From the NCBI GenBank assembly GCA_021805445.1, contig JAJZFH010000066.1, positions 1-64,000 on the forward strand: a stretch of 64,000 nucleotides of DNA. Reading direction: 5' to 3'. The position numbers were made by a program, and so were the translations under genes. This DNA comes from Pseudomonadota bacterium. Its GTDB lineage: Bacteria; Pseudomonadota; Gammaproteobacteria; Burkholderiales; Ferrovaceae. How positions within the stretch are numbered: position 1 is the stretch's first letter; every line of letters begins with the position of its first letter. Of the stretch, positions 6,501 to 24,769 are shown in pieces. The notes under the pieces were generated by a model, which searched no databases, was not told the origin of the DNA, and saw nothing but the letters and a program-made list of their open reading frames with translations.

Positions 6501-7586
6501 GACAACGACGGTATAAGCAGTAGAAGCCGAGTTGTTAACCGTTACCGTTCCAGCCGGATCTGTCGCTGTTGTGCTACCCACAGTCACGCTGCCACTATTG
6601 GTGACGGTCACGTTGTTTCCGCCAATCGTGGTCACCGCATTGGTAGTGCCGTGCGATGTGTCGGTGATGTCCGTCGTTGCTGCGGCCGTGATAAAATCGC
6701 CATTATTTCCAGCGGAAGTCACGGTTACAGAGGTCAAACCAGTCAGCCCGGACACATCAAACGTAGTTGTTGCACTTGACCCCGCATTTCCTGCCGTAGC
6801 AAGGGTAAGGGTTTGAACACCAGTGATCGTTGCGCCAGTTGGAATAGTGTCACGGCCTGTAGAACTGCTGTCGGTCAATTTCAGGGTATTACCCGTGCCG
6901 GTCGCGGCAATGGTGTCTGCACCACCCAAAGTTGCTGTAGAGAGTGCTGCGCCAGCGTTGTTGTCAAGCGTACCGTTGATCGTGCTGTTGCCTGCAGGTG
7001 CGATGGTGTCCACACCTGTAGTGAGCGTGAATGTTGTCGCTGATGCTGCGGAACCGACATTGACCACGGAATTCACGTTGGCGGCCAATGAGGAGAAAGT
7101 CGTCGTTGCCACGGCACTGCTGGGCACTGCGGTAAACAACGCAGAACGTGCCGCGTTGGCAGCGGCGGACCCGTTGTAACCAATGATGTCCGGGGTGCTG
7201 GTGCTCATCATGGTGGTGAATTGTGTGGCGTATGACACACGGTTCTGCACGGTGATGTAATCGGTGCTGGTGGGAGATTCATTCAGCACGGTGTTGTAGA
7301 TGGTGTTGACAAGGGTGCTGATGGACACACCGTCCATGAGTTGCCCACCCCAATAGGTTATGGCCGCGCTTCCGGCAGAGCGTCCCAGTACGTTCTGGTA
7401 CACCTGTTGCACTTGCGCAGCCGGGCTCAATCCGGCGTAAAGACCGGCAAATTCAGGGCTACCGGTAAAACCAGCAGTCATGGCGGCTGAAGTCTGACCT
7501 TCCCAATAGTTAAGACCCAAGACATCTGCAGGGCGACCAAAATATGCAAGATAAGCTTGTTGTACTTGTGTGGCGGTAAGAGCCAT
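3597..7586 (-). CDS. S-layer-like / large secreted DUF4214-type surface protein
   Basis: This 1,329-residue protein is made almost wholly of Thr, Ala, Gly, Val, Ser, Asn and Asp, with very few Lys and no Cys seen. Residues 1-115 (TATQVQQAYLAYFGRPAD..., repeated as VQQVYQNVLGRSAG) resemble the DUF4214 domain found at the N-terminus of many type I-secreted surface proteins. The rest is repetitive beta-rich sequence. A single RTX-like stretch, LGNGNDLIIDGS, lies near residue 1159. There is no Sec signal peptide, and the C-terminus (HTLTAGLGHVTLAS) suits an uncleaved type I secretion signal. Start: AGGAG stands 8 nt before ATG at 7586; the ATG at 7592 is only 2 nt from it and is less likely. S-layer subunit is my best guess; a giant adhesin is the alternative. 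The likely exporter is the type I system at 20.3-24.8 kb. Confidence 0.75.
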   Translation of the reverse strand: MALTATQVQQAYLAYFGRPADVLGLNYWEGQTSAAMTAGFTGSPEFAGLYAGLSPAAQVQQVYQNVLGRSAGSAAITYWGGQLMDGVSISTLVNTIYNTVLNESPTSTDYITVQNRVSYATQFTTMMSTSTPDIIGYNGSAAANAARSALFTAVPSSAVATTTFSSLAANVNSVVNVGSAASATTFTLTTGVDTIAPAGNSTINGTLDNNAGAALSTATLGGADTIAATGTGNTLKLTDSSSTGRDTIPTGATITGVQTLTLATAGNAGSSATTTFDVSGLTGLTSVTVTSAGNNGDFITAAATTDITDTSHGTTNAVTTIGGNNVTVTNSGSVTVGSTTATDPAGTVTVNNSASTAYTVVVNGGTAVTVNETGGALIAIDQNVASTGAITVNDTGDIGMGITVGTGSWIGSTITSSSNAGAITINDTSAFTTTGNQVANYIRSYGGSTVTINQNLTVASTLASAIATDPTQGLTTVDGGDVFVEGNASTTSVTVNQSAAVTGVQAVKAVAGVAAVAPVTAVAQAPGVDAVAAVAAVAPVTAVAGVTGVVGVVDGWVSVLDVNYESTSLAGTIKTVTINNFSTASIYDNSLQTLTLSNGHNIRFAQLATNTVATKTLALNLNNVKGAMYGAGSGGALDLTTLNVNTSGADSSLSYIADPALKNLNISGTNKLEVGSLGSTTVGSGVGSAGSTAALAISVSGAAGFNDGGTFANTFAGSTLTTTSSGTITATLHAAGTDTFTGSTGQDIITITADQTKAVTGGSATNNEIVLNNAASTFTGGTTKTVANVTGFTTLGTNTGSSGTFDMSVLKGFNAIDVQNMTATTAETFTNVTAGTSLSIDSIAAAQTAGGIVYQTSDTTGSADTLALTLGTATNKADLTLFSLTLEDANLVGIGTVNLVSNDVGTGTGVNTITTLVDNGLSVLNVSGTGALTIGTLNEATTAATSFTLNNTETNAAATGVTIASFTDASLGTLNFTGTGASFITKLNDNSGVISISNNDAAAAVIGTLTDAGVASGLSLAMGFSGSGATTITTLTNTSTTTTADSFTNSGSAVVTIGAVSNDASVVKETYNNSGTGSMTVSMDHNANVAALDLLGNVAYTNTTTVASSPIGTAMTINPAMNTVAMGVTVAGGTDNAHINLQLAGATGGASTVIDSITLGNGNDLIIDGSLSNTVNVTVGTGSNLIVLGGATTNTTGAFNVTLGAHTLASGPDQINVGTGGTAYATTANYVVTGAVTGDVIHFSADSASSATALTATSTAAATTVASAIGLVETALGAAAHTVAYGVYGGNTYVAETLTGTHAATDTTIVEIVGVHTLTAGLGHVTLAS
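5938..6060 (-). repeat. Internal Ala/Val/Pro low-complexity tandem repeat in the S-layer-like gene
   Basis: A DNA segment beginning TGCCGTAACAGGAGCAACCG occurs at 5961 and again at 6024, a 63-bp period. It encodes two copies of a block containing AAVAPVTAVA. The surrounding beta-repeat sequence is Thr/Asn-rich, so this Ala/Val/Pro insert stands out and may be a flexible linker or an expanding slippage tract. Confidence 0.7.
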
Positions 7587-7774
7587 TATCATTTCTCCTG
7601 GTAATTATCGAATTCGAACCCAAACTCTGGGCATAACCTCGCCCATCAATACATAAACTTCAACTTCCGTGCCATCGTACGCTATGGTACAGCGCATCCT
7701 GTCTTTTGTCATCCCCAATCAAACTTTCAAACTGTTTCGCTCTCCCGAATACCCCCTGATCGAAGTTCGGCTAG

Positions 7775-8016: not shown

Positions 8017-9057
8017 ATGAGTACAGTAATGGTGACGGGCATCACAGGTCAGGATGGTTCTTACCTGGCGGAACTCTTGCTGGGAAAGGGGCACCGGGTG
8101 TTCGGGTTTGCCCGCCGTGAGAGCGGGACTGGTTCTGCAGTCGCCCACCCGTTGGGATCGCGGGTAGAGATACTGTTTGGGGATATGGCCGCAGAAGGGG
8201 ACATTTCTTCAGCGGTCGAGATGACGCAGCCCGATGAGATTTACAACCTGGCCTCTCAGTCCCGTCCTGCGGAATCCTGGTCCCGCCCCATAGACACCCT
8301 GATGGTCAACGGACTGGGGCCGGTTCGCCTGTTTGATGCCGTGCGTCGATACAAGCCCCGCTGCCGTGTGTTTCATGCCTCCTCCTCCGAGATGTTTGGT
8401 CAGCCTGCTGCCGGCCCCCAGAACGAGCAATCCACTTTTTTTGGTGCGGCCAATCCCTATGCTGCCGCCAAGGTCTATGCCCATCAGATGGCGCGCATTT
8501 ATCGTCAAAGTCACGGGATGTTCATTGCCTGCGGCATTCTGTTCAATCATGAAAGTGAGCGGCGCCCTTTGCATTTTCTGTCTCAGAAGGTGGCGTATGG
8601 GGCTGCCTGTGCGGTTTTGGGGGTGCTGGATTCCCCTGATCTGAATGAACGGGGTCATCCCATTGTGCGGGAGGGAAAACTCTCTCTGGGGAATTTGGAT
8701 GTGTCCCGAGATTGGGGGTATGCGCCGGATTATGTGGAGGCCATGTGGCGCATGCTTCAATTGGACCGGCCTGACGATTTCGTGATCGGCACGGGACGGT
8801 TACGCTCGTTGCGCGACTTATGTGCCGCTGCCTATGGCTGCGTGGGACTGGACTGGACGGATTTCGTGGTGAGTGACCCTGCATTGGTGCGCCCCGTGGA
8901 GACCGGACGTAATCTGGCAGATCCTGCAAAAGCCAGGTCAGAACTGGGATGGGAACCCACCGTGACCTTTGAATCCATGATCGCTCGAATGGTGGCGGCA
9001 CAACGGCAAAGATTGGTTGAACATTTGACCGATAAAACCACGATGTTGAATCAATAA
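8017..9057 (+). CDS. GDP-mannose 4,6-dehydratase-like SDR protein (divergent paralogue)
   Basis: This 346-residue extended short-chain dehydrogenase/reductase is built like GDP-mannose 4,6-dehydratase. The NAD(P)-binding [16 protein letters not shown] is at residues 7-22, the Ser-rich strand [10 protein letters not shown] near 120, and the catalytic [10 protein letters not shown] (YxxxK) near 150. [10 protein letters not shown] corresponds to the family's FNHESP(L)RG segment but lacks its Pro-Leu-Arg-Gly part. It is clearly diverged from the canonical Gmd encoded 17 bp downstream. Two tandem copies suggest sequential steps to a 6-deoxyhexose: Gmd makes GDP-4-keto-6-deoxymannose, and this one may be a second dehydratase or the C4 reductase that yields GDP-rhamnose. 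No separate fcl or rmd gene is seen here. The ATG start lacks a strong ribosome-binding site. Confidence 0.75.
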
Positions 9058-9074
9058 CCTTGGGGGGCGAAGGA

Positions 9075-10160
9075 ATGAAGCGGATCGCATTGATTACCGG
9101 GGTCACAGGACAGGATGGCGCCTATTTGGCCGAGTTGCTGCTGGACAAGGGGTATGAGGTACACGGGATCAAGCGACGCAGTTCACTCTTCAATACGGAT
9201 CGCATCGACCATCTGTACCATGATCCCCATGTCTCAGGACATGACTTCGTACTCCACTATGGGGATTTGACCGATTCGAGTTGTTTGATTCGCATCATCC
9301 AGAAGGTTCAACCCGACGAGATCTATAATCTGGCGGCTCAAAGCCACGTAGCCGTGTCCTTCGAGGAGCCGGAATATACCGCCAATTCCGATGCGCTGGG
9401 GACTTTGCGAATTCTTGAGGCCATCCGGATTTCGGGATTGGAGAAGAAGACGCGCTTTTACCAGGCATCGACTTCCGAAATGTATGGTCTGGTGCAGGAA
9501 ACCCCTCAAAAGGAGACGACGCCCTTCTACCCGCGCAGTCCCTATGCCGTGGCCAAACTGTACGCCTACTGGATTACGGTGAACTACCGGGAATCCTATG
9601 GCATGTATGCCTGCAACGGGATCTTGTTCAACCACGAATCTCCCCTGCGCGGGGAAACTTTCGTGACGCGCAAGGTGACCCGCGCCCTGGCACGCATCAA
9701 ACTGGGACTGCAGGCGTGTCTTTATATAGGGAACCTCGATTCCAGACGGGATTGGGGTCATGCCAGGGACTATGTGGAAATGCAGTGGATGATGCTGCAG
9801 CAGGATCATCCCGAAGACTTCGTCATCGCCACCGGGGTGCAGTACAGTGTACGCCAATTCATCGAAGCCGCCGCGCTGGAACTGGGCATGCCGCTGCATT
9901 GGAAAGGACAGGGAGGGGATGAAAAAGGGTACGATGCTGCCGGTCGCTGCGTGGTGGCGGTAGACCCCCGTTATTTCCGTCCCGCCGAGGTGGAAACCCT
10001 GTTAGGGGATGCCACCAAGGCACGGGAAAAATTGGGGTGGGTCCCGCGTATCACTTTTGCCGAACTGGTGACCGAGATGGTGCACGCGGACCTCAAGTCC
10101 GCCGAGCGCGACGAACTGGTCAAGCGCCACGGGCACAAGACCTACGACTATCATGAGTAA
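9075..10160 (+). CDS. gmd: GDP-mannose 4,6-dehydratase
   Basis: This enzyme converts GDP-D-mannose to GDP-4-keto-6-deoxy-D-mannose, precursor of GDP-fucose, GDP-rhamnose and GDP-perosamine. Length (361 residues) and sequence match the family closely: [16 protein letters not shown] (residues 8-23), [18 protein letters not shown], the active-site ASTSEMYG strand, [12 protein letters not shown] (YxxxK) and [20 protein letters not shown] at 9075 is chosen because a GGGGGG stretch lies about 8 nt upstream and the protein then begins MKRIALITG as in relatives; an in-frame TTG at 9060 is less likely. It is the second gene of the cluster, probably co-transcribed with the paralogue before it. The following 335-bp gap separates it from the O-antigen exporter genes. 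Confidence 0.93.
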
Positions 10161-10495
10161 ACGGGCAGAAGCCGGTGTTTCCTGTGGTTCAGGTACTCCC
10201 CTGCAGAACAATCCGTCTCTATAATTCCCTGGAGAAGGCCGGTCGAAAGGTGAACGACGTGACACATCTTCCATCCTGTGAGGTCAATGCTTCATTTGGG
10301 TCAGATGCCCAATAAACGAGAAATCCACCACATATCTTTGATATTCTAACCACTTTTCGCATAGGTTCTATCGAACGAGTTGACGAGGGTTCGATTTTAT
10401 CCGCACCGCGTATCCTGCGCCAACTTTAATTTCCACTTCCCCGACCCGTCTGAAGTTATAATGCAGCCCTCCCTACTCCGTCGAGTGGCTTCGGA
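10161..10495. other. 335-bp intergenic region before the O-antigen ABC exporter genes
   Basis: No coding frame is supported. Two TATAAT hexamers occur, at 10220-10225 and 10457-10462; the second lies 34 bp before the permease start and could be the -10 of an exporter promoter, but no convincing -35 stands at the right distance. No terminator hairpin was seen after gmd. Confidence 0.45.
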
Positions 10496-11311
10496 ATGAT
10501 AATGCGTTTCTTCTGGGAACCCCTGACCCTCTTCGCCCGCCACAGGATCTTGCTGCGCCGTCTGACGCGGCGCGAATTCGAGGCCAGATACCGCGGCTCG
10601 ATATTGGGCCTGACTTGGGCAGTGATTACGCCGGTGACCATGATGGCGGTCTATACTTTTGTGTTCCACTCCGTATTGGCGGCCCGCTGGCCTGGTCACG
10701 CCGTTGACGACCGGATGGGCTACGCGCTGAACCTGCTGGCCGGGCTGATCGTCTTCAACGTGATCGCCGAGTGCTTGGGCCGGGCACCACGCCTGATCCT
10801 GGAAAATCCGAGTTATGTGAAGAAACTGGTTTTCCCGGTGGAAATCCTTCCGGTGGTGGCGCTCCTGGGCGCCTTGATCTCTGCCTCGATCGGTTGCCTC
10901 GTGCTGCTGCTCCTCCAGTGGGCGACAGGGGGTCCGCCATCACCGGCAATCCTGCTGTTGCCGCTGCTCGTCATGCCGCTCCTTTCTTTGTGCCTGGGTG
11001 TCACGTACCTGCTGGCAGCGCTCGGGGTATTTCTGCGCGATATCGGCCAGATCATCGGCCCACTGGTGATGGTACTGATGTTTTTGTCGCCCGTGTTCTA
11101 TCCCGCAGAAAGCGTGCCCCAGCCTTGGCGCGACTGGCTGGAACTCAATCCACTGGCGGCGGCAATCGGCTGGGTCCGGGGAGTTATTTTGCTCGGCAAC
11201 CTGCCATCGGTCGGGGCCTATGTCGGCCAACTGGCAGCCGGAGTACTGTTTCTTGCGCTGGGCTACCGGACGTTCATGGCCTTGCGGCCCGGTTTTGCCG
11301 ATGTCGTCTGA
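10496..11311 (+). CDS. wzm: ABC-2 type polysaccharide export permease (Wzm-like)
   Basis: This 271-residue membrane protein of the ABC-2 permease family (TagG/Wzm/KpsM) moves undecaprenyl-linked O-antigen across the inner membrane together with a Wzt ATPase. The N-terminal amphipathic segment RRLTRREFEARYRGSILGLTW, typical of these permeases, spans about residues 24-44. Around six hydrophobic segments follow, and the family ending FLSPVFYPxExVP...LNPL is present near residues 195-220. The start may be the ATG at 10496 or 10502. The gene overlaps the first wzt by 11 bp, so translation is coupled. It is the only permease in the cluster although two Wzt proteins are encoded. Confidence 0.88.
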   Translation: MIMRFFWEPLTLFARHRILLRRLTRREFEARYRGSILGLTWAVITPVTMMAVYTFVFHSVLAARWPGHAVDDRMGYALNLLAGLIVFNVIAECLGRAPRLILENPSYVKKLVFPVEILPVVALLGALISASIGCLVLLLLQWATGGPPSPAILLLPLLVMPLLSLCLGVTYLLAALGVFLRDIGQIIGPLVMVLMFLSPVFYPAESVPQPWRDWLELNPLAAAIGWVRGVILLGNLPSVGAYVGQLAAGVLFLALGYRTFMALRPGFADVV

Positions 11312-12599
11312 ATTCCCGGAAAGCGTCCTTGCCTGCACCGAATTGGGGAAAGCGTACACGATTTACGCGCGACCGGAGGACCGCTTGAAGGAGTGGCTGA
11401 AAGGCGGACCCCACGGCAACACGTTCTGGGCACTGAGAAATGTGTCGCTGAGCATACGCCCCGGTCAAACAGTGGGCATCATCGGGCGTAACGGGTCAGG
11501 CAAATCCACTTTCCTTCAAATGGTGGCCGGCATCCTCAACCCAACGGAAGGCGTCCTCCATACCCGCGGCCGCATCGCCGCACTGCTCGAACTCGGCACC
11601 GGCTTCAACCCCGAATTCACCGGCCGCGAAAACATCCGCCTCGGCGCCTCCCTCCTCGGCCTCGACCCCGACACCATCGAAGCGCGCATCCCCGACATCG
11701 CCCACTTCGCCGACATCGGCCACTTCTTCGATTACCCCGTCAAACTCTATTCCTCAGGAATGCACGCCCGCCTCGCCTTCGCCCTCGTCGCCCACGTCGA
11801 TGCCGATCTCCTCATCGTCGATGAAGCCCTCGCCGTCGGAGATGCCGCCTTCTCCCAAAAATGCATGCGTTTCATGCGCGAATTCCGCAATCAGGGCACC
11901 CTCTGCTTCGTCTCCCATGATGCCGCCGCCGTCATCAACCTCTGCGATTCCGCCCTCTGGCTCGACCACGGCACACTCCAGGCCTTCGACGATGCCCGCT
12001 CCGTCTGCAGGGAATACAACGCGATGATGTTGGGCCAGGCGCGGCAACAAGGTATCCATCAATCGGGGGGGCGCATTCTGCCCCCCCCCGTCGTGACCGA
12101 AATACCGGAGCCCTTGCTGACGGCCCCTGTAATGGAATTGCCGAACTGCTCCCTGGATACCGTCGATCTGGTCGATGAGACAGGCATTTCGGTCCATGCC
12201 CTACGGGGCGGTGAACGGCTCTCCCTGCGATTGTCGGGAAAGATCGACCGGTCCGCCCAGCCGCTGAATGCAGGATTCGTTTTCAAGGATCGATTGGGAC
12301 AGACCCTGTTTGGCGTTCTGGCCGATGTCTCGCTGAACGCCCAGTGCGATGCGGACGGAAGTTTCGAAGCGCGATTCATTTTTGACCTGCCCATGCTTCG
12401 GGCCGGAGATTTTTCCTTCACGGCAGTACTGGCGTCACCCTGCGATCATTCGTTGATCGTCCGGGCGCGCCGCGATGAAGCATGCGTCCTTCGCCTCGAC
12501 CCGCAACGGGTGACTCACGGGCTGTTGCCCATCCCCGTCGCGGTCGATTATCGTGTTGTTTCAAGATCCCCTATTTCAGAACGAGTGAATCATGAATGA
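11301..12599 (+). CDS. wzt: O-antigen ABC exporter ATPase with C-terminal carbohydrate-binding domain (Wzt copy 1)
   Basis: The 432-residue ATP-binding subunit starts at ATG 11301, inside the last codons of wzm. Residues 1-240 form the nucleotide-binding domain: Walker A GIIGRNGSGKST, signature YSSGMHARLAFALV and Walker B DLLIVDEALAVGD. About residues 290-430 form a Wzt-C beta-sandwich domain (GFVFKDRLGQTLFG, then FIFDLPMLRAGDFSFTAVLAS), which in related systems reads the modified end of the polysaccharide. Bases 11329-12017 match 15601-16289 in the second Wzt at every base I compared. The segments beyond the repeat share only family-level likeness. It overlaps the following fusion gene by 8 bp. 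Confidence 0.9.
   Translation: MSSEFPESVLACTELGKAYTIYARPEDRLKEWLKGGPHGNTFWALRNVSLSIRPGQTVGIIGRNGSGKSTFLQMVAGILNPTEGVLHTRGRIAALLELGTGFNPEFTGRENIRLGASLLGLDPDTIEARIPDIAHFADIGHFFDYPVKLYSSGMHARLAFALVAHVDADLLIVDEALAVGDAAFSQKCMRFMREFRNQGTLCFVSHDAAAVINLCDSALWLDHGTLQAFDDARSVCREYNAMMLGQARQQGIHQSGGRILPPPVVTEIPEPLLTAPVMELPNCSLDTVDLVDETGISVHALRGGERLSLRLSGKIDRSAQPLNAGFVFKDRLGQTLFGVLADVSLNAQCDADGSFEARFIFDLPMLRAGDFSFTAVLASPCDHSLIVRARRDEACVLRLDPQRVTHGLLPIPVAVDYRVVSRSPISERVNHE
11329..12017 (+). repeat. 689-bp direct repeat, copy A (Wzt ATPase domain)
   Basis: By eye every base from 11329 to 12017 matches 15601-16289 at a constant offset of 4,272 bp, with no gap or mismatch found. The repeat covers the whole ATPase domain and stops before the carbohydrate-binding domain. 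It can recombine to delete or amplify the 4.3 kb between copies. Confidence 0.93.
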
Positions 12600-15549
12600 T
12601 ATTTTCCCCGAGACGCTGTCCCGCCTGGGTACGTCCCTGGTCTTCGCAGAACCTGCCCTGACAAGCCCCGATACGGCCTGGAGTTGTCATCTGCCCTTTG
12701 CTTTCTGGCTTGTGGAGGCGTTACGCCCGAACATCCTGGTCGAACTGGGCGTGCACACCGGGGTTTCCTACTGTGCCTTTTGTCAGGCAGTGGCGCAACT
12801 GGGTTTGCCGACCGCAACCTATGGCGTGGACACTTGGCAAGGGGATGCGCACGCCGGTTCCTATGGCGACCGGGTGCTCGACACGCTGCGTGCCCATCAT
12901 GATCCGCGCTATGGCAGTTTTTCCAGCCTGGTGCGCACGAACTTCGATGCGGCGCAAACCCATTTCTCCCCAGGATCCATTGATCTGTTGCACATCGATG
13001 GCCTGCACACCTATGAAGCGGTACGGCACGATTTCGAAACCTGGCTCCCCCTGATGTCTGAGCGAGGGGTAGTGCTGTTTCACGATACCATGGTGCGCGA
13101 ACGCGATTTCCGGGTCTGGAAACTATGGCAGGAACTGAGTGGACGGTATCCCTCATTTTCCTTCCCCTTTGGTCATGGACTGGGGGTTCTCGGCGTGGGC
13201 AGTCGTTTGCCCGACGCTATTGGCTGGTTGCTGGGCCAGGCAAGCCAGAGCACCCATGGTGCCGTGGTTCGTTTCTTCTCTGTGCTGGGAGAAAGGCTGG
13301 AAACCCGTTCAGGGATGGAACGCGCCTTGCGGGATGGCTTGCAGGAACGGGAGCGCCACCGGACTCAAGTCCATAGCCTCATGACCGAAGTCTCTGAACT
13401 CCATGAGCACAGAGCAGTCGCAACGAGCGCACTGAATGCCTGTCGCGCCGAGATTTCCCTTCTCAAAACCTCGACTTCGTGGCGAATCACGGCCCCCCTG
13501 CGCCTTGCCAATCAGAAAATCCGCCAGACCATGGATAGCCGCACGCCCCCCGAGGTCTCGACGGTCGTACCCGAGCCCCGCCCGACCGCGATCAAACAGT
13601 ACTACCCGTTGCGCGACGCATGGTACGACAGCGAATCGCCCGAGGTGTCATTGGTCGTCCTGAACTTCAACCGTTCGGACCTGACGCTCGCCTGCCTGGA
13701 TTCCCTGTGGGAATATACTACGAACCACCGTTATGAAATCGTGCTGGTGGACAACGGCAGCAATGCCGATGAGTTCCTGAAACTGGCACCCGCCGCCGCT
13801 GGCGCACGCACGGTCCGTCTGGGCATCAACCGATTCTTCAGCGAGGGTAACAATATCGGCTTCGAGGCTTCCCGTGGCCGCCATGTGGTGTTTCTGAACA
13901 ATGATGTCACGGTGACGCCGGGTTGGCTGACGCCGCTGATCCACCGTCTGACGAATGATCCCGGGATCGGCGCCATCGGCCCCAAGATGGTGTATCCCGA
14001 CGGGGTACTGCAGGAAGCAGGGGCAGAAGTTCGTCTCGACGGCAGCAGTTGCCAGTTCGGCAAAGGAGGGGATCCTCTTGACCCCATTTATGGGAAGGAA
14101 CGGGAGGTCATGTATGTCTCGGCAGCAGCCCTGGCCCTGCGCCGCGAAACATTCGAACAGGTTCTTGGATTCGATCTGTGTTACGAGCCGGCTTATTACG
14201 AAGACAGCGACCTGTGCATGAAAATACGACAGACGGGATTGCGCATCGTGTATTGCCCGGATTCCACCATCGTGCACCACGAGAGCGCCACTTCCCGCGA
14301 CCTGGTCCAACAACTCCGGCTCGACGCCGTCGTCCCGCTGAACCAGGCACGCTTTCTGGCGCGTTGGAAGCCAGTCATGACTGGCGAAATCGCTGCCGTG
14401 GCAGATCTGATTCCCCCGCTCGCCCCCCCCCTCCTGCATCAGGCAGAATTGCCTGATGTCCTTCTTTACACGCCCTACGCTCTCATTCCCGGTGGAGGCG
14501 AACGTTATCTGCTCACCATTGCCGCCGGACTTGCCGGGCTTGCCAATGTCACGCTGGCAACCCCGTACTCCTATTCGCGCCTCAGACTGCGCACAATGGG
14601 GCGCGAGTTGTCGCTCGACCTGGATGCCGTCAACATCGCCACGCTCGATCAGGCGACGAAATCCGCGCCTTACGACTGGTCGATCGTGATCGGCAACGAG
14701 TTGGTTCCTGCAATTCCTGCAAAGGGAAGGCGTAACCTCTTCATATGCCAGTTTCCCTTCCCGGTTCCGGAGCAGGTGCTGGTCGACAGGTGGAACTACA
14801 CTGACGACTACGAGCGGGTGGTCGTGTACAGCCCGTATGTCCAACGCCATTATTCTTCCCTGCTGTCGGCAGCCGGCAAGCCGAAATTGCCGATCTCGAT
14901 CGTCAGCCCACCCGCGCCGTCCGTGTTGGCGCCCGATGCAGCGACCCCGGTGAAGAAACCCATGATATTGGGCGTCGGACGCTTCTTCGTTGGAGGTCAT
15001 GCCAAGCGCCAGGACCTCATGATCGATGCCTTCCGACAACTTGTCGTTCTGCATCCTGAAGCGGAACTGCATCTGGCCGGATCGCTTCCCACCGAAAGCG
15101 AGTTTCGCGCCTATTTTGCCGATTTGCAAAAGAAAGCCGAAGGATTGCCGATCTTCTTTCATCCTAATGCTTCTTCTGAGCAACTGGCCCGACTCTACGC
15201 CGAGGCCTCACTCTACTGGCATCTGTCGGGGTATGGTATCGATGAAGCCAAAGAAGCCCAGTGCTGCGAACACTTTGGCATCACCATCGTCGAAGCGATG
15301 TCGGCCGGGTGCATTCCCCTGGTGGTCAATCGCGGCGGCCCCCCCGAAATCGTGCAGCAGGGGGTTACCGGCCATGTGTTCGAATCCCTTGACGATCTCG
15401 TGAAGATCAGCGACCGAATCCTGTCCTTGCCGGACGATGATGCCGACATCACCACCCTGCGAAGAGCGGCGATGAGTGCAAGCAGGAAATTCGGCAGCGA
15501 ACGTTTCACCGCCGAGTTTCTGAGCCTGATGGAGTTTTCTGGCAGATGA
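12592..15549 (+). CDS. Three-domain fusion: SAM methyltransferase - GT2 glycosyltransferase - GT4 glycosyltransferase
   Basis: The 985-residue protein has three enzymatic parts. Residues 1-210 are a class I methyltransferase (VELGVHTGVSYCAF, then DLLHIDGLHTYEAVRHDFETW and VVLFHDT). Residues 240-290 look like a coiled coil ending in SWRITAPLR, a motif often found beside polysaccharide glycosyltransferases. Residues 350-600 are a GT-A fold GT2 domain (VSLVVLNFNRSDLTLACLDS, VDNGSNAD, the metal-site-like FLNNDVTVTPGW and YYEDSDLCMKIR). Residues 620-985 are a GT-B fold GT4 domain (GVGRFFVGGHAKRQDLMIDAF; HFGITIVEAMSAGCIPLVV with the E-x7-E pair near 892). Such proteins extend and terminally methylate O-chains; the methyl cap would be what a Wzt-C domain recognises. 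It sits between the two wzt genes and overlaps both (8 and 4 bp). Confidence 0.88.
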   Translation: MNDIFPETLSRLGTSLVFAEPALTSPDTAWSCHLPFAFWLVEALRPNILVELGVHTGVSYCAFCQAVAQLGLPTATYGVDTWQGDAHAGSYGDRVLDTLRAHHDPRYGSFSSLVRTNFDAAQTHFSPGSIDLLHIDGLHTYEAVRHDFETWLPLMSERGVVLFHDTMVRERDFRVWKLWQELSGRYPSFSFPFGHGLGVLGVGSRLPDAIGWLLGQASQSTHGAVVRFFSVLGERLETRSGMERALRDGLQERERHRTQVHSLMTEVSELHEHRAVATSALNACRAEISLLKTSTSWRITAPLRLANQKIRQTMDSRTPPEVSTVVPEPRPTAIKQYYPLRDAWYDSESPEVSLVVLNFNRSDLTLACLDSLWEYTTNHRYEIVLVDNGSNADEFLKLAPAAAGARTVRLGINRFFSEGNNIGFEASRGRHVVFLNNDVTVTPGWLTPLIHRLTNDPGIGAIGPKMVYPDGVLQEAGAEVRLDGSSCQFGKGGDPLDPIYGKEREVMYVSAAALALRRETFEQVLGFDLCYEPAYYEDSDLCMKIRQTGLRIVYCPDSTIVHHESATSRDLVQQLRLDAVVPLNQARFLARWKPVMTGEIAAVADLIPPLAPPLLHQAELPDVLLYTPYALIPGGGERYLLTIAAGLAGLANVTLATPYSYSRLRLRTMGRELSLDLDAVNIATLDQATKSAPYDWSIVIGNELVPAIPAKGRRNLFICQFPFPVPEQVLVDRWNYTDDYERVVVYSPYVQRHYSSLLSAAGKPKLPISIVSPPAPSVLAPDAATPVKKPMILGVGRFFVGGHAKRQDLMIDAFRQLVVLHPEAELHLAGSLPTESEFRAYFADLQKKAEGLPIFFHPNASSEQLARLYAEASLYWHLSGYGIDEAKEAQCCEHFGITIVEAMSAGCIPLVVNRGGPPEIVQQGVTGHVFESLDDLVKISDRILSLPDDDADITTLRRAAMSASRKFGSERFTAEFLSLMEFSGR

Positions 15550-16937
15550 CCACCCGGAAGGATTCTGGCAATGGCATGGACATCAACACCGAGCACGCCA
15601 TTGCCTGCACCGAATTGGGGAAAGCGTACACGATTTACGCGCGACCGGAGGACCGCTTGAAGGAGTGGCTGAAAGGCGGACCCCACGGCAACACGTTCTG
15701 GGCACTGAGAAATGTGTCGCTGAGCATACGCCCCGGTCAAACAGTGGGCATCATCGGGCGTAACGGGTCAGGCAAATCCACTTTCCTTCAAATGGTGGCC
15801 GGCATCCTCAACCCAACGGAAGGCGTCCTCCATACCCGCGGCCGCATCGCCGCACTGCTCGAACTCGGCACCGGCTTCAACCCCGAATTCACCGGCCGCG
15901 AAAACATCCGCCTCGGCGCCTCCCTCCTCGGCCTCGACCCCGACACCATCGAAGCGCGCATCCCCGACATCGCCCACTTCGCCGACATCGGCCACTTCTT
16001 CGATTACCCCGTCAAACTCTATTCCTCAGGAATGCACGCCCGCCTCGCCTTCGCCCTCGTCGCCCACGTCGATGCCGATCTCCTCATCGTCGATGAAGCC
16101 CTCGCCGTCGGAGATGCCGCCTTCTCCCAAAAATGCATGCGTTTCATGCGCGAATTCCGCAATCAGGGCACCCTCTGCTTCGTCTCCCATGATGCCGCCG
16201 CCGTCATCAACCTCTGCGATTCCGCCCTCTGGCTCGACCACGGCACACTCCAGGCCTTCGACGATGCCCGCTCCGTCTGCAGGGAATACCAGGAATCGAT
16301 CAATGTCGAGCGCCGCGGGGGGTATTCGAAGACCAACCAAGGACCCCACTCCAGTCCATCTTCTCCCGCCCCCGCCGGGCAAGTCTGCTCGCAGTTCGTA
16401 GTCGGAGCATTCGACTCCCAGGGACCATGGCATGGGTTTCTGGAGGCTCGCATCATCGATGCTGAGCTTACTCGGGCAGGGGATCCGTCCTGCCGTATCT
16501 TTCAGAACGGCAACCGGGTATGCCTGCGGGTGACGGCGCGTTGCGACAAGGACCTGGCGAGTCCAGTCATCGGTTTTTCCTGGAAAGACGCGCGTGGACA
16601 GGAGATCTTTGGCGGCAATACCCTCGCCGCCCTGAGCGACAGCGAAACATTGTTGACGGGTGAAGGCTTCGTCGCCGAGTTCATGTTCACTTTGCCCATA
16701 TTGCATACGGGGACCTACTTCATCACCCTGGCATTGGCTGAGGGTGACCAGTTCAATCATGTGCATCATCACTGGATGGACGAAGCCTTTACCCTGCAGG
16801 TCAGTTCCACAGTGCCGGTCATCGGCATCATGGATGTTCCGTGCGAATGTAAAATCCTCCATGCTTCCTCTCGAATGGAAGCAGCGGGGACTGTTTCCCC
16901 AGAGGACGGCAACAGATATCTGACCAGCACGCCTTGA
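15546..16937 (+). CDS. wzt: O-antigen ABC exporter ATPase with a different C-terminal domain (Wzt copy 2)
   Basis: The protein has 463 residues. Its start overlaps the stop of the fusion gene (ATGA); ATG at 15576 is an alternative. Residues about 20-248 are identical to the first Wzt, with the same Walker A, signature and Walker B. After residue 248 the sequence changes abruptly. A linker rich in Ser and Pro leads to a distinct Wzt-C domain (about 285-430) with GFSWKDARGQEIFGGNTLA, FMFTLPILHTGTYFITLALAEG and HHHWMDEAFTLQV, which is closer to the usual family pattern than copy 1. Same motor with a second recognition domain suggests export of a second or differently capped polysaccharide through the single Wzm. 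I infer this from domain layout only. Confidence 0.9.
   Translation: MTTRKDSGNGMDINTEHAIACTELGKAYTIYARPEDRLKEWLKGGPHGNTFWALRNVSLSIRPGQTVGIIGRNGSGKSTFLQMVAGILNPTEGVLHTRGRIAALLELGTGFNPEFTGRENIRLGASLLGLDPDTIEARIPDIAHFADIGHFFDYPVKLYSSGMHARLAFALVAHVDADLLIVDEALAVGDAAFSQKCMRFMREFRNQGTLCFVSHDAAAVINLCDSALWLDHGTLQAFDDARSVCREYQESINVERRGGYSKTNQGPHSSPSSPAPAGQVCSQFVVGAFDSQGPWHGFLEARIIDAELTRAGDPSCRIFQNGNRVCLRVTARCDKDLASPVIGFSWKDARGQEIFGGNTLAALSDSETLLTGEGFVAEFMFTLPILHTGTYFITLALAEGDQFNHVHHHWMDEAFTLQVSSTVPVIGIMDVPCECKILHASSRMEAAGTVSPEDGNRYLTSTP
15601..16289 (+). repeat. 689-bp direct repeat, copy B (Wzt ATPase domain)
   Basis: This is the partner of 11329-12017. The boundaries are sharp: upstream TCCTT versus GCCATT before TTGCCTG, downstream GAATAC followed by AAC versus CAG. 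Confidence 0.93.
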
Positions 16938-17003: not shown

Positions 17004-17822
17004 GTGAAATTACCCATTGACGCCCCTGAATTCATCGAGTACCACTGCAACATTTGCGGTGCTGGAAATCGGCTGGCGACCAGTAAATTCCGCCGCGAAC
17101 TGGCGCTTTGTGAAGCATGTGGGGCAAATGCCCGTTTTCGGGGAATCATCCATGTCCTGGCGCAAGCCCTGGGTGAAAGTGACGCTCGCCCCCTCAAGGA
17201 ATGGAGCGAGTGCAGGAACATCCGTGGCATCGGCATGAGTGATTGGCCCGGCTACGCCGACCTTCTCAAAAAGAAATTCAGTTATGAGAATACGTTCTAT
17301 GATCGCCTTCCACGGCTGGATATCCAGAATCCCGATCTCGAACTGTCGGGCAAGCACGACTTTCTCATCAGCACGGATGTGTTCGAACATATCCTGCCGC
17401 CGTTGCAAAGAAGTTTCGACAACCTGCTCGCCTTGCTGAGACCTGGGGGAAGCCTCATATTCAGCGTACCCTACACGCGCACCCCCAACACCCTGGAACA
17501 CTATCCAGGACTGCGCGAATATGAAATATTTGATTTCCGCAACCGTAAAATACTTGTCAACCGCGATGAAGACGGTAAACTGCAGGCCTACGACAACCTG
17601 GTTTTTCATGGTGGAGAAGGGACGACACTGGAAATGCGCCTGTTCTGCGAATCAGACATATTGAACCTCCTTGCCCAGGCCGGGTTCGAAAACACACGCG
17701 TACACGATCAACCACAACTCTCCATCGGCTACTACTGGCCGGAACTGGAGCAGGCCGATGCGAACGCTCCCCCCCTCTACGCCTATATCATCAGCGCCCG
17801 CCGGCCTGTCGCTACTTGCTGA
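17004..17822 (+). CDS. Class I methyltransferase with N-terminal zinc ribbon
   Basis: This 272-residue protein starts at GTG 17004, with AAGGAGG at 16991-16997, one of the strongest ribosome-binding sites in the window. Cys15, Cys18, Cys36 and Cys39 form two CxxC knuckles. A class I methyltransferase core follows with a weak motif I (IRGIGMSDWPGY) and a clear STDVFEHI, then LRPGGSLIFSVPYTR. Similar proteins occur inside O-antigen and glycan loci, where their acceptors are usually unknown. Its stop overlaps the start of the radical SAM gene (TGATG), so the pair is translationally coupled. I cannot name the substrate; glycan methylation is the likeliest reading from the neighbourhood. Confidence 0.8.
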   Translation: MKLPIDAPEFIEYHCNICGAGNRLATSKFRRELALCEACGANARFRGIIHVLAQALGESDARPLKEWSECRNIRGIGMSDWPGYADLLKKKFSYENTFYDRLPRLDIQNPDLELSGKHDFLISTDVFEHILPPLQRSFDNLLALLRPGGSLIFSVPYTRTPNTLEHYPGLREYEIFDFRNRKILVNRDEDGKLQAYDNLVFHGGEGTTLEMRLFCESDILNLLAQAGFENTRVHDQPQLSIGYYWPELEQADANAPPLYAYIISARRPVATC

Positions 17823-19099
17823 TGGCACTCCTTCCCCGAAAAAAGACGCGCATCGCCTTCGAAAATTTTTTGCTGGCGCATTATGAACGGAACTTGCGCG
17901 TCGAACAGGTTCGTTCCCGTCCCTTCGTGCTGTTACTCGATCCAGCCTCCGTGTGTCAACTCCAGTGTCCAATGTGTCCGACCGGGTTGGAGAATGCCGG
18001 AAAGGTGGGCCATGGCCGAACTGCTTACCGACCCCGTGGCCTGCTCAATCGGAAAGTTTTTGATGCCGTGCTCGACGAATTGGGGGATACCCTGTTTTTC
18101 GTCCACCTCTACAACTGGGGAGAACCGCTGCTCAATAAGGACTTGCCGTATTTCATACGGGAACTTGTCCGACGAGATATCGTTGTCGACACCAATACCA
18201 ATCTCTCCTTACCCCTCAGTGATCTGTTCATAGACGAATTGCTTGGTTCAGGCATCGACCGGATCGAAGCTTCGATCGATGGTTTCAGCCAGGAAACCTA
18301 TGGACGTTACCGAATCAAGGGGCGTTTCGCTCTCGCCCGAGACAACTTGCTGAAACTGGTTGCCGCCCGCGACCGCCTCGGCCTCGATACCCAGATAGTC
18401 TGGAACTTCCTGGTTTTTCGCTTCAATGAACCTGAGATCGAGACGGCAAAACAGTTCTGCGAAGATCACGGTATCGAGTTCGTACGCCGGGAGGCAGCCC
18501 TGTCCGAACCCTTGCGTGCTGAATTCCTGCCCACATACCGCGAAGGAGAAATCCTCGAAGGATTCTTTGAGCAGCGGGCAAAACCATTCGATCCCACCTC
18601 CGTCAGCAGACGCCCGGAGCAGAGTTGTGGTTGGCACTACTATTACTCCGTCATCAATGCGGACGGCAGCGTATCGCCCTGCTGTGCACCCTGGGAAGCC
18701 GACTGGGATTTCGGTTTCGTGGTGCCGGGAAGCACGCGTTTCTCTGACCTCTGGAACGGCGAGGCAATGCAGGCATCCCGCCGCGATGTCGCAGGACACC
18801 GACTGCTCGAGGAATTACGTCACTCGGGTAAACTGGGCTCGATCCTGTCAGTGGACGATTTCGTCCGGCAAGGAACGATTTGCGAAGGCTGTCAAATGCC
18901 GTTGCCGATGCTCGATCTTTATTCGGGTCGAGCCGACCTCATCATTCCCCATTACTTTCAGACCGCAGGAGGAAATGATGCGTTCCTGGACCGCGCCTTT
19001 GAACTGGTGCGCAGTAATCCAGCCGCTTTTGTCCAGCACCTGTCAAGCAACAATAAAATCACGCAGTTTATCGCCCAGCATACTTACCCTTTAAAATGA
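17822..19099 (+). CDS. Radical SAM/SPASM domain protein
   Basis: ATG at 17822 overlaps the preceding stop by one base and gives a 425-residue protein; an in-frame TTG at 17816 is less likely. Cys45, Cys49 and Cys52 (CQLQCPMC) bind the radical SAM 4Fe-4S cluster. YNWGEPLLN near residue 100 is the GGE-type segment, and NADGSVSPCCAPWE near residue 280, with later FVRQGTICEGCQMPL, is a SPASM-type auxiliary cluster region. Such enzymes modify peptides or small molecules; members in sugar clusters may dehydrogenate, epimerise or rearrange sugars. It is the last gene of the polysaccharide cluster. Substrate unknown. Confidence 0.83.
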   Translation: MALLPRKKTRIAFENFLLAHYERNLRVEQVRSRPFVLLLDPASVCQLQCPMCPTGLENAGKVGHGRTAYRPRGLLNRKVFDAVLDELGDTLFFVHLYNWGEPLLNKDLPYFIRELVRRDIVVDTNTNLSLPLSDLFIDELLGSGIDRIEASIDGFSQETYGRYRIKGRFALARDNLLKLVAARDRLGLDTQIVWNFLVFRFNEPEIETAKQFCEDHGIEFVRREAALSEPLRAEFLPTYREGEILEGFFEQRAKPFDPTSVSRRPEQSCGWHYYYSVINADGSVSPCCAPWEADWDFGFVVPGSTRFSDLWNGEAMQASRRDVAGHRLLEELRHSGKLGSILSVDDFVRQGTICEGCQMPLPMLDLYSGRADLIIPHYFQTAGGNDAFLDRAFELVRSNPAAFVQHLSSNNKITQFIAQHTYPLK

Positions 19100-20266: not shown

Positions 20267-21652
20267 TCAGTGGGAGTGGGCGACCTCGAAATGGGGAACC
20301 GCATCCTGGGCGGTCTTGACCGGGCTATGATCGAAATAGTGGGCCAGCTGCCTGACGTCGTCCTTGCTCAAGGTACCGGCATCGGCGTTGAGGTGCAGGT
20401 AACTGTTGAGGTAATCGTAGCGGGCTTTGGCCAGATCCCGGCGTGCCTGATAATACTGGGACTGGGCGTTGAGCAGGTCGAGGTTGACCCGTTCGCCCCC
20501 CTGAATGCTCATGCGGGTGGCCTTGATCAACTGCTGGGCTGAATTCACCGCTTTTTCCAGAGCGCGGATACGGGCAAAACTGCTCAGCACCAGGCCATAC
20601 TGCTTGTACAGATCCACCAGCACCTTGTTGGTCTTGTCATCCAGATCCGACTGGGCCCGTTCCAGATTGGCCTTGGCCTGACTGGACAGGGCGGTGACAT
20701 AGCCTCCGGCGTAAAGCGGGATGCTCAGTTCGATCCCGATGGAACGCACGAACATGTCCTGGGCAAAGGTATAGATGGAGCCCTGGTTATTGCGGCTGAC
20801 ACTCCCCACGAGGTCCAGTTGAGGGGCATGACCGGCCTGATCCTTCTTGACTTCCTGTGCGCTGGCATCCACCGCATACTTTTGCGAGGCGATCTCGGGG
20901 TTATGGTCGAGCGCCAGGGCTTTCCACCCGTCAAAATCCTCCGGATCGAGGGGAGAAGGATGGAATTCATCCGTCAGGGGTTCCAGATCGGGGACATCGG
21001 TCCCCACGATGCTGTTGAAACTGCGCTTGACCGTGGCCAGGTTTTCCTGTGCCTCGATCACCTGGGACTCGCTCAGGGCATACTTGGACTGGGTTTCCAG
21101 GGTATCGGTCAAGGTCCCCTGCCCTTTCTGGAACAGCCGTTCATTGGCCTGCATCTGTTCGCCGTAAGCCGTATGTTGCGCCTGGACCAGGTCGAGTTGA
21201 TCCTGGGCATACAACACGTCCGTATAGGCTTGTACCAGACGCAGGATCAGATCCTGGGCGTGTCCGGAAAACTGGGCATCACTGTAATTGGCCTGGGCCT
21301 TCCCCTGACGGTACATGGCCATGTCCCCCAGATTGAAGAGGGGCTGACGAAGGGACAGGGTCGTCACTTCACTGATGTAATTCACTTGCTGGCCCGGCAG
21401 GGGGGACCCCACATTCGAAATCCCCAACAGGTTGGTGCCCTTTTGATAGTCCAGGGATAAGTTGGGCAATAACTTGGAACGCCCCAGGGCCACGTTTTGC
21501 GCCCCCGCATCCCGCTCATGTTGCGCCGAACGATAGGTGGGGTCGTTCTGGAGTGCGGCATCCAGAGCCTCTTCCAGCCCCAGCGCCCACCCCTGGCTGG
21601 AAACCAGACCCAATAGGACGAGGAGGGTACCTCGTCGAGGAACGATTCTCAT
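20267..21652 (-). CDS. TolC-family outer membrane channel of a type I secretion system
   Basis: This is the third gene of the exporter operon. ATG at 21652 follows GAGGAG with a 7-nt spacer and lies 4 nt after the adaptor stop; an in-frame GTG at 21667 is possible but less likely. A signal peptide (IVPRRGTLLVLLGLVSSQGWAL) precedes two outer-membrane-efflux repeats with the family features LEEALDAALQNDPTYRSA and, in the second half, AQSQYYQARRDLAKARYDYLNSYLHL. Mature length of about 440 matches TolC, PrtF and RsaF. It forms the trimeric channel through which the substrate leaves the cell. Confidence 0.93.
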   Translation of the reverse strand: MRIVPRRGTLLVLLGLVSSQGWALGLEEALDAALQNDPTYRSAQHERDAGAQNVALGRSKLLPNLSLDYQKGTNLLGISNVGSPLPGQQVNYISEVTTLSLRQPLFNLGDMAMYRQGKAQANYSDAQFSGHAQDLILRLVQAYTDVLYAQDQLDLVQAQHTAYGEQMQANERLFQKGQGTLTDTLETQSKYALSESQVIEAQENLATVKRSFNSIVGTDVPDLEPLTDEFHPSPLDPEDFDGWKALALDHNPEIASQKYAVDASAQEVKKDQAGHAPQLDLVGSVSRNNQGSIYTFAQDMFVRSIGIELSIPLYAGGYVTALSSQAKANLERAQSDLDDKTNKVLVDLYKQYGLVLSSFARIRALEKAVNSAQQLIKATRMSIQGGERVNLDLLNAQSQYYQARRDLAKARYDYLNSYLHLNADAGTLSKDDVRQLAHYFDHSPVKTAQDAVPHFEVAHSH

Positions 21653-21656
21653 ACGC

Positions 21657-23012
21657 TCACTCCTCACTCATGGAGGTCTTGATGCGATCGAACATGGGCT
21701 TGAGCAGATAACTCATCATGGTTCGATTGCCGGTTCTGACAAAGGCCTCCACCGGCATGCCGGGACGTACCTGCAAGTTACCCAGCAGTTTGGCGCCTTT
21801 TTCGGTCACCTCTGCGCGCATGGTGTAATAGGATTGTCCTGTTTTCTGGTCGGTGAGGCGGTCGGCAGATATCTCGATCACGCGCCCCGGAATATGCGGG
21901 GTGGTATTCCGGTTGAAGGCCGGAAAAGTCATGTCGACTTCCAGTCCCGGATGCATCTTGTCGATGAGTTCCAGAGGAATTCTCCCTTCGATGATGAGGG
22001 CATCATGGGAAGGAACCACTTCCATCATGGGCATCCCCGGAGAGACGACCCCCCCCTGGGTGAACACCTTGAGATCCACCACGGTGCCATCCACGGGAGA
22101 TTTCACCTCAGTATTGCTCAGATCGAAATCCTGACTGGAAAGACGGTGCTGGATCGTGATCGCTTCTTTTTCCACCTCGGTCAATTGCTGGCGGACCTCT
22201 TTCTGATAATCTTCCAGCCGTTGGCTTTTCTTCAACTTCATTTCGGCGGCCTGCCGCTGGGTATACCCCAGGCGCCCGCTTTCCTCGGCCAGAATACCGT
22301 TGACTTCCGCCTGATTGCGCTGCAGGTCCAGAAAACGGCTCTTGGCTACATACCCTTCCTTGACCAGATCGCGCATGTTGTCGATCTGTTCCGTCAGGTA
22401 CTGCAACTGCTGGGTGCGGCTGCTCCTGGCGGCTTCCAGTCCGGCAGCCTGCTGTTCCAGGCCGGCGATGTTCTCGTCCATGGCAGAAAGTTCATTCTGC
22501 AGGGCTGAACGGCGTGCCGTGAACAACTGTTGCTGCAGGGCCATGTCATCCTTGACGCGCGGATCGTCCTGGTGGGCCAACAAGGTCTGGGGAAAGCGCA
22601 CGGTGGCCTTGCCATCCCGTTCGGCTTCCAGGCGGGCTTGCACGGCCAGATCGGAGTCATACTGGGTCCGGCTCATCTCGGCCTGGGCCTTGGCCTGGGT
22701 ATCATTGATCCGCACCAGTACCTGCCCTGCCTTGACCGTATCGCCTTCCTTGACCAGAATCGCCTCGACGATGCCCCCCGGTTGGTACTGGATCTGCTTG
22801 CGGTTGGTGGCTACTTCCACCACACCGCTGACGGCCACCCCCTGATCCAGCGGCGCAAAGATCGCCCACAGCAGGAAGCCCCCCACCCCGCCCAAGATGA
22901 TCCACCAGCCCATGCGGGTGTATACCCGATCATCGGTCTTGACGATGTCCACCGCCGTGACATCGATGATTTGATTCTTGTTCTTGAGTAATGGATTGAT
23001 GGGATTCATCAT
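21657..23012 (-). CDS. HlyD-family membrane fusion protein of a type I secretion system
   Basis: This 451-residue periplasmic adaptor has one N-terminal membrane helix ([21 protein letters not shown], about residues 36-56). A biotinyl-lipoyl-like half motif follows ([23 protein letters not shown], ending [16 protein letters not shown]), then a long alpha-helical hairpin (about 110-290). The second half ([21 protein letters not shown]) and a C-terminal beta domain complete it. The start overlaps the ABC stop (ATGATGA), so the two are coupled. Closest in layout to PrtE and RsaE, adaptors for proteases and S-layer proteins. Confidence 0.94.
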
Positions 23013-24769
23013 GCCCCCTTCCCTGCCGCCTGAGCGGCTTGCTGTGCTTGTTGCTGCGCCTGCTGGAGTTGCTGTTGCTGCTGGGCCAGATGGGCCAGGA
23101 CCTGGTCCGTGGGACCAAAGAGTTGCGCCACCCCGTCGCGCAGCAGGAGCAGTTTGCTGGTCGCGCTGATGATACTGGTACGGTGCGTAATGAGGACGAT
23201 GGTTTTTTTGCGCTGGCGCAGTTCCAGAATGGCGCGCACCAAAGCCTGTTCGCCCACGTCATCCAGGTTGGAATTGGGCTCATCCAGCACCAGTACCGCA
23301 GGGTCGCCATACATGGCCCGAGCCAGTCCCAAACGCTGTTTCTGTCCACCCGACAGTCCGTTGCCGCCATCCCCCAGGATCGTGTCATAGCCTTTGGGCA
23401 GTTGCAGGATCAGGTCATGCACGCCCGCCCGTTGCGCGGCTTCCACCACCATTTCCGGAATCACCACCCCGAAACGGGCGATGTTCTCGCTCACCGTCCC
23501 CTCGAACAATTCGATATCCTGGGGCAGATACCCCAGATGCGGTCCCAACTGGTCCTTGTTCCACTGCACCACGTCCGCCCCATCCAGCCGTACCTTCCCC
23601 ATGACCGCAGGCCATACCCCGACGAGCAGACGCGCCAGCGTGGATTTACCGGAGCCACTGGGTCCGATTACGCCCAGAACGTCTCCGGGCACGATGGCCA
23701 GGTTGAGGCCCTTGATGACCGGGATGGAGGCCCCCGGAGGCGCTGCCGTCACGTTCTCCACCGTCAGCACCCCCTCCGGGGGAGGCAATTCCATGCCCGG
23801 CACCCGCGGCGGATTCGTCGCCAACAGCAATACCAGACGTTCATAGGCACTGCGCGTGGCACTGAACTGGCGCCACACGCTGATGAGCAACTGGACCGGT
23901 CCCATGGCCTTGCCCATGAGGATGGACCCGGCGATCATCATCCCTGGGGTAATGCTGCCCTTGACCGCCAACCACCCCCCCACCCCCAGCACCAGGGATT
24001 GGGACGTCACCGACATGAATTTGGTCCCCGCTCCCACGATTCCCGCCTTTTCACTGGCTTCGGCCTGCAGGGTGATGAAGCGGGTATGCAGGGTGTACCA
24101 GCGCCCCTGCAATTGGGGCAACATTCCCATGGCTTCGATCACCTCGGCGTTGCGCAGGTTATTGCTGGCCAGGTTGCTGGAAGAGATGGCGAGGGCATTG
24201 GCTTCGGAGAGGGGTTTGTGGGAAACCTTTTCATTGAGCCAGGCCAGCCAGATCAGGATCAGGGTACTGATCAGGGAAAACAACCCCAACCAGACGTTGA
24301 ACAGAAAGATCACCAGCAAGTAGATGGGAAACCAGGGGGCATCAAAAAAGGCGAACAGGGCATTGCCGGTCATGAACTGGCGCAAGGCCGTCAAATCCTG
24401 CAGAGCCTGCCCGGCATTGCCGCCGGCTTTCCTGAGACTTTGCTCGAAGGCGGCCGTATACACCCGTTTGTTTAGCTTTTCATCCAGTTTCGCCCCCACC
24501 CGGATCAAAATGAAACTGCGCACGAATTCCAGGGCACTCATGAAAACATAGGCCCCCACCGCCATGATCGTCACCATCAGCAACGTCATCTCGTTGCGAC
24601 TGGGCAAAACCCGATCATAAACCTGGAGCATATATAAGGAAGGGGCCAGCATCAGCACATTGATAATGGCACTGAACACCCCCACCGTGCGAAATACGCT
24701 GCGGTAGGCCAACACTGCCTGACCGATTTCATTCTGCGGGATTTTGGGAAGAGCCTGGAAAGGTTTCAT
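23009..24769 (-). CDS. Type I secretion ABC transporter (PrtD/RsaD class)
   Basis: The 586-residue half-transporter has a membrane domain at about residues 25-310 ([23 protein letters not shown] is a hallmark of the PrtD class). The ATPase domain follows with [14 protein letters not shown] (Walker A), [15 protein letters not shown] (signature) and [12 protein letters not shown] (Walker B). It has no N-terminal C39 peptidase or C39-like domain, so it should export leaderless proteins with C-terminal signals. The last 40 residues are a Gln/Ala-rich helix ([20 protein letters not shown]), an unusual tail. It is the first gene of the leftward ABC-adaptor-TolC operon and the best candidate exporter for the S-layer-like protein. 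No strong ribosome-binding site precedes the ATG. Confidence 0.94.

Follow-up and report, generated by a model that had tools for sequence, protein, structure and literature searches.

A putative Ferrovum surface-glycan export operon with one Wzm and two Wzt genes, whose ATPase domains appear to be homogenized by gene conversion

Gene content of the operon and its surroundings

The window, by which we mean the whole stretch of 64,000 nucleotides analyzed here, contains a forward-strand operon of four overlapping genes in the order wzm, wzt1, methyltransferase/glycosyltransferase fusion, and wzt2. The only channel subunit of the operon is coded by wzm (10496 to 11311; PF01061 ABC2_membrane, 100.3 bits), a permease gene that adjoins wzt1 (11301 to 12599) and overlaps it by 11 bases. 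The fusion gene (12592 to 15549) combines methyltransferase, GT2, and GT4 parts (PF13578, PF00535, and PF00534) and overlaps wzt1 by 8 bases, while wzt2 (15546 to 16937) overlaps the fusion gene by 4. These overlaps, which depend on start codons of our own choice, suggest translational coupling of the operon. Both wzt reading frames are intact, and both proteins contain an ABC-type ATPase domain (NBD; PF00005, 73.8 bits in Wzt1 and 73.6 in Wzt2, cutoff 25) followed by a C-terminal Wzt_C domain, the putative glycan reader (PF14524, 54.3 and 96.6 bits, cutoff 30.4).

Upstream on the same strand, a GDP-mannose dehydratase family gene (8017 to 9057; PF16363) falls below the cutoff of the NCBIfam gmd model (255 versus 415 bits) and is possibly rmd, involved in GDP-D-rhamnose formation, which would make it a possible sugar supply. 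It is followed by gmd, coding for GDP-mannose 4,6-dehydratase (9060 to 10160; TIGR01472, 592.5 bits, cutoff 415), and the two together would yield GDP-D-rhamnose. Downstream of wzt2 lie a methyltransferase gene (17004 to 17822; PF13489, 32 bits, cutoff 27), a candidate cap or sugar modifier, and a gene for a radical SAM/SPASM protein (17816 to 19099; PF13186 and PF04055 above cutoff). Positions 20267 to 24769 code for putative TolC-, HlyD-, and ABC-like proteins of what looks like a type I secretion system. On the reverse strand, 3597 to 7592 codes for a repetitive protein of 1,331 amino acids, and 10223 to 10371 is what is left of a glycosyltransferase gene transcribed divergently, whose reading frame in Ferrovum myxofaciens P3G spans 651 open codons; about 548 bases were lost internally and the rest on the gmd side.

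The window genome, a draft of 1.97 Mb in 68 contigs, codes for a third Wzt on another contig (C29), which adjoins its own Wzm, the pair together occupying 507 to 2643; compared with the window's proteins, this pair is 44% (Wzm) and 57% (NBD) identical. The third ABC2_membrane gene of the genome is on contig C21.

A shared ATPase block and its counterpart in a sister species

Almost the entire NBD of the two Wzt proteins is coded by the same sequence. A direct comparison of 11329 to 12017 with 15601 to 16289 gave 689 of 689 identical bases, confirming what the first-pass annotation had claimed, and these intervals are the maximal exact match (offset 4272), with identity breaking off sharply at both edges. 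The first shared base is the second of the Leu/Ile codon preceding ACTELGK, and its final codon is TAC, coding for Tyr239 in Wzt1 and Tyr248 in Wzt2. What follows, the remaining hinge helix, the linker, and the reader domain (12018 to 12599 in wzt1 and 16290 to 16937 in wzt2), is as divergent as that annotation had stated, with 25.8% amino acid identity over 190 aligned residues. The only other exact direct repeat of at least 30 bases in the window is a single 30-base pair at 5959 and 6022, and no inverted exact matches of 30 bases were found across the 64 kb. A search of the window's own genome returned both copies of the block and one relative at 65%.

The window genome is a Ferrovum species other than F. 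myxofaciens P3G, within the same genus, and P3G has the same four genes, split over three contigs because each NBD is interrupted by a contig break. The C-terminal domains are orthologous across the two species and in the same order (83.3% amino acid identity for domain 1 and 81.2% for domain 2), and in a tree of these domains they group by gene across species, with support of 100/99 and 97/95. As each C-terminal domain has its own ortholog, the two-Wzt arrangement is older than the species split. The idea of a modular swap in progress, also put forward in the first-pass annotation, is not supported by this comparison, since both Wzt genes are present in P3G, with matching C-terminal domains and in unchanged order. 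The operon was carried by only these two species in the data examined.

The NBDs behave differently from the readers. Those of P3G are 98.8% identical to each other (7 differences over the 200 codons counted), and its block copies differ at 11 of 614 comparable positions, 4 of them in the first 14 bases. The 5' and 3' pieces of the P3G wzt genes are open; their middle is unassembled, and 75 bases of the block, equivalent to window positions 11667 to 11741, are absent from the contigs. Synonymous changes inside and outside the repeat, a comparison proposed by the first-pass annotation, were assessed against P3G. Within genomes, the dS of the NBDs was 0 in the window, where none of 164 synonymous sites differed, and 0.034 in P3G (5 of 149), whereas between species it was 0.26 for wzt1 and 0.22 for wzt2. 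The latter values are close to those of wzm (0.22), the fusion gene (0.29), and C-terminal domain 1 (0.29); C-terminal domain 2 has a dS of 0.54. With rounded counts, Fisher tests of the paralog comparison against the two ortholog comparisons gave P values of 6e-12 and 2e-10 in the window, and of 1e-6 and 1.3e-5 in P3G. Site patterns changed from ortholog type outside the block to species type inside it (32 species-type sites); as the window copies are identical, ortholog-type sites are impossible inside the block, and the weight of this evidence comes from the near-identity of the P3G copies together with the distance between species. The edges also correspond: the two species share the codon of the 3' edge, and their 5' edges are no more than 14 bases apart.

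As the two-Wzt arrangement predates the split, yet the identity of the NBDs has been maintained, the data support gene conversion as the process that holds them alike, i.e., concerted evolution of a single domain. The conversion limited to the ATPase domain that had been proposed from the window thus finds support in P3G, where synonymous sites are alike within each genome and not between them. The same pattern bears on whether selection on the protein, without recombination, could keep the NBDs identical. The nonsynonymous distance of the NBDs between species is indeed low (dN of 0.012 to 0.017), but synonymous sites, which show no difference between the window copies, few between those of P3G, and many between the species, exclude selection as the sole cause, and we consider its chances practically nil. 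Pressure for a common motor is plausible; it is the synonymous identity that indicates conversion, and the block edges coincide with the end of homology. Both readers are constrained beyond neutral, as the between-species dN/dS is approximately 0.35 in C-terminal domain 1 and approximately 0.18 in domain 2, compared with approximately 0.05 to 0.08 for the NBD.

Timing of the conversion and alternative histories

Complete identity in the window, without one synonymous difference, would also be expected if the NBD had been copied just once, and very recently, onto another C-terminal domain in the window strain, so that identity would reflect youth. However, P3G also has both genes, in the same order and with C-terminal domains orthologous to those of the window, and its NBDs are alike between themselves and at a dS of 0.22 to 0.26 from the window NBDs, which makes such a single duplication or domain replacement very unlikely. 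The data would agree with one NBD having overwritten the other at a late stage, an event that amounts to gene conversion.

Repeats of this length are difficult for short reads, and the window genome is a draft, so an assembler could have pasted a repeat consensus twice or produced a second copy that is not real. P3G, however, was assembled independently, and its contigs are interrupted at this repeat too. Four distinct flanks surround it, and the contig ends have exactly 126 bases in common, a length that fits a de Bruijn assembly with k = 127 halting at the repeat. Besides, the P3G copies are distinguishable at the positions given above. It is unlikely that the second copy was invented by the assembly, and an artifact as the whole explanation strikes us as extremely improbable; a few true differences are possibly hidden by the consensus in the window assembly.

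We conclude that at least one conversion has taken place since the species split, and probably one in each lineage. In a rooted NBD tree with 13 outgroup NBDs, the window pair had a support of 93 and the P3G pair of 66, while with three outgroup rows the P3G pair formed no clade and P3G wzt2 grouped with the window pair (82/75). Conversion after the split in the P3G lineage is not firm, because of this weak support and the loss of the clade with fewer outgroups. The NBDs could instead have been equalized once just before the split, with P3G evolving slowly since and later conversion only in the window lineage. The P3G pair's support of just 66 is consistent with this, as are its very short NBD tips (0.005 to 0.006) and the short branches of its C-terminal domains (0 and 0.054 versus 0.16). 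At the 32 species-type sites, however, most of which are third codon positions compared with distant outgroups, the outgroup majority has the window state in 16, the P3G state in 12, and a tie in 4, so that the changes common to both copies seem to lie on both species branches. We regard this history as rather unlikely, and favor conversion in both lineages after the split.

The operon itself may have moved. In the window, the four-gene block lies between gmd and the methyltransferase gene, while in P3G it is outside of, and convergent with, the rmd-gmd-methyltransferase-radical SAM genes. A move or exchange of all four genes together is possible. The between-species dS of the neighbors is 1.10 for the rmd-like gene, 1.35 for gmd, 1.17 for the methyltransferase gene, and 0.99 for the radical SAM gene; further downstream it is 0.75 for a presumably regulator-like gene, and then 0.32, 0.52, and 0.60 for the TolC-, HlyD-, and ABC-like genes (these labels are our own reading). 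Because divergence is greater in the genes beside the operon (dS of 0.75 to 1.35) than in the operon, the block may have passed from one lineage to another instead of being vertically inherited. The argument for conversion requires only one common ancestor of the two-Wzt cassette. Recombination between the direct copies would loop out 4,272 bases, removing domain 1 and the fusion gene along with the beginning of wzt2. The product would be wzm followed by one in-frame Wzt gene with reader 2; a looped-out single-Wzt form of this kind was not seen.

Proposed working and comparison with known systems

Export by Wzm/Wzt is usually described with one channel and one motor-reader subunit. Our main reading of the locus, to which we assign a probability of roughly 0.78, is that it is a surface-glycan export operon in which one channel subunit is accompanied by two ATPase subunits, with different readers on a motor segment homogenized by gene conversion; its functional part is predicted from gene content and domain matches. 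The genes of the operon would be coexpressed, and Wzt1 and Wzt2 would each drive the one Wzm, either as two homodimeric exporters or as one mixed dimer. We infer the use of a common channel because the operon holds a single Wzm, while the third Wzt of the genome has its own. The readers would accept different chain ends of the glycan, possibly one based on D-rhamnose. Conversion would keep both motors matched to the single Wzm, and the readers would remain distinct, having presumably diverged too far to convert. The attachment of two readers to a common motor has apparently persisted since before the species diverged, and the prediction that follows is that Wzt1 and Wzt2 each form a complex with the one Wzm and recognize different chain ends.

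The best PDB sequence match for both Wzts was the WzmWzt O-antigen exporter of Aquifex aeolicus (the 8dku group and 7k2t). The chain index of 8dku equals the numbering of the paper plus 1 at each residue compared by eye, and with that shift the Tyr that ends the block aligns with Aquifex Tyr232. The next residue, where divergence begins (Asn in Wzt1 and Gln in Wzt2), aligns with Tyr233. In both species the 3' edge lies one residue short of the position aligned with Tyr233, which is described as a residue of the hinge helix (226 to 240) of the Aquifex NBD that contacts the O antigen (PMC9445017). With Tyr233 just past the edge, the block would comprise the ATPase plus the first half of the hinge helix, and the part predicted to contact the sugar would go with the reader. 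The end of conversion is a natural join between motor and reader and suggests where the two are functionally separable, although this edge may be simply the end of homology. A bolder version, tentative and somewhat short of even odds, is that one channel serves two glycan ends via the two ATPase-reader subunits, with conversion as the upkeep of the motor half and a tract that stops just before the first predicted glycan-touching residue of the motor; the Wzts might then share one Wzm dimer as a mixed two-headed reader.

The pocket residues of both readers differ from those of the Aquifex protein. By eye, the Aquifex cap residues correspond in Wzt1 and Wzt2, respectively, to Leu and Asn (Asn313, a position that is a gap of Wzt1 in the MAFFT alignment), Ala and Ala (His350), Asp and Gln (Asp354), His and Phe (His355), and Arg and Trp (Trp362). 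Each reader thus keeps two of the five (Asp and His in Wzt1, Asn and Trp in Wzt2), and readers of other glycans need not share them; the P3G proteins retain the same states of Wzt1 and Wzt2. Predicted structures of the full-length Wzts, made from four-row alignments, were discarded (mean pLDDT of 37.4 and 39.9). In overall architecture, the window proteins are like Aquifex WzmWzt, with an NBD followed by a Wzt_C-type carbohydrate-binding domain, beside a Wzm. The Aquifex glycan is described as rich in D-rhamnose with methylated caps (PMC9445017), and the window operon adjoins gmd and the putative rmd. The Aquifex transporter is presented with one Wzt (PMC9445017), whereas the window operon has two, with the same NBD and different readers, for one Wzm.

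We also looked for similar loci in related genomes. The NBD query matched at least 152 of 399 genomes of the order (E value of 1e-55) and 37 of 369 of the class (1e-62), and the Wzt_C search at least 137 of 399 and 68 of 360, respectively; at least four genomes (that of the window, G000, and G046, G079, and G122) belong to both the order set and the class set. Among the matches listed, pairs of Wzt_C domains at most 20 kb apart on one contig were found only in the window genome (G000:C19) and in G067:C28, a count that pairs split by contig ends in drafts escape, as do weak pairs; the two Wzt_C domains of P3G itself are on separate contigs. In G198:C22, two NBD matches lie about 15 kb apart with one Wzt_C, and more distant pairs on the same contig occur in G174, G209, G226, and G268 (Wzt_C search, among the matches listed) and in G781 (NBD search of the class). 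A scan of named genomes gave three loci, two of them on P3G contigs and one a distant match at 25%.

The locus in G067, a genome of the same order, resembles that of the window, with wzm, wztA, a methyltransferase/GT fusion, another gene, and wztB, and with NBDs far more alike than the C-terminal domains. It has no match in the other two of the three genomes of its family. Unlike in the window, amino acid identity between its NBDs is only 70% and unevenly distributed, with 97% of bases identical in one 25-codon stretch and 48% in another. It also differs in a near-copy of the 3' end of wzm just before wztB (reverse strand, approximately 11080 to 11165), which looks like a trace of how wztB arose, and in a gene of 375 codons after wztB (reverse strand, 12666 to 13793) that codes for a Wzt_C without an NBD. 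A free reader domain can act in trans (PMC9445017).

Loci with one wzm and two wzt are already in print, so the gene set is not new. In Burkholderia pseudomallei and its near neighbors, the O-antigen clusters of LPS type B contain two wzt homologs and one wzm homolog, conserved over three related ladder types; we liken them to the window by description, and the passages concerned are silent on identical NBDs or conversion (PMC3541218). The Massilia violaceinigra cluster also has wzm and two wzt; the domain of the wzt gene adjacent to wzm could not be verified in that study, and the passages on the cluster do not mention NBD identity (PMC9834719). Our surveys, which sampled the same order as these printed cases, undercount such loci. 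In mainly non-subscription literature, no report was found that combines one Wzm and two Wzts with domain-limited concerted evolution, nor one of such evolution in Wzt, including where "Wzt" and "gene conversion" co-occur. The closest parallel to the process is that of PKS/NRPS clusters, in which domains of one cluster are homogenized by internal recombination and group by cluster; these are assembly lines of many modules, while in the window it is the motor half of two ABC transporter subunits (PMC4256081). One-Wzm/two-Wzt loci and domain-limited concerted evolution are each known separately, and, as far as the literature searched goes, what is new in the Ferrovum operon would be their combination.
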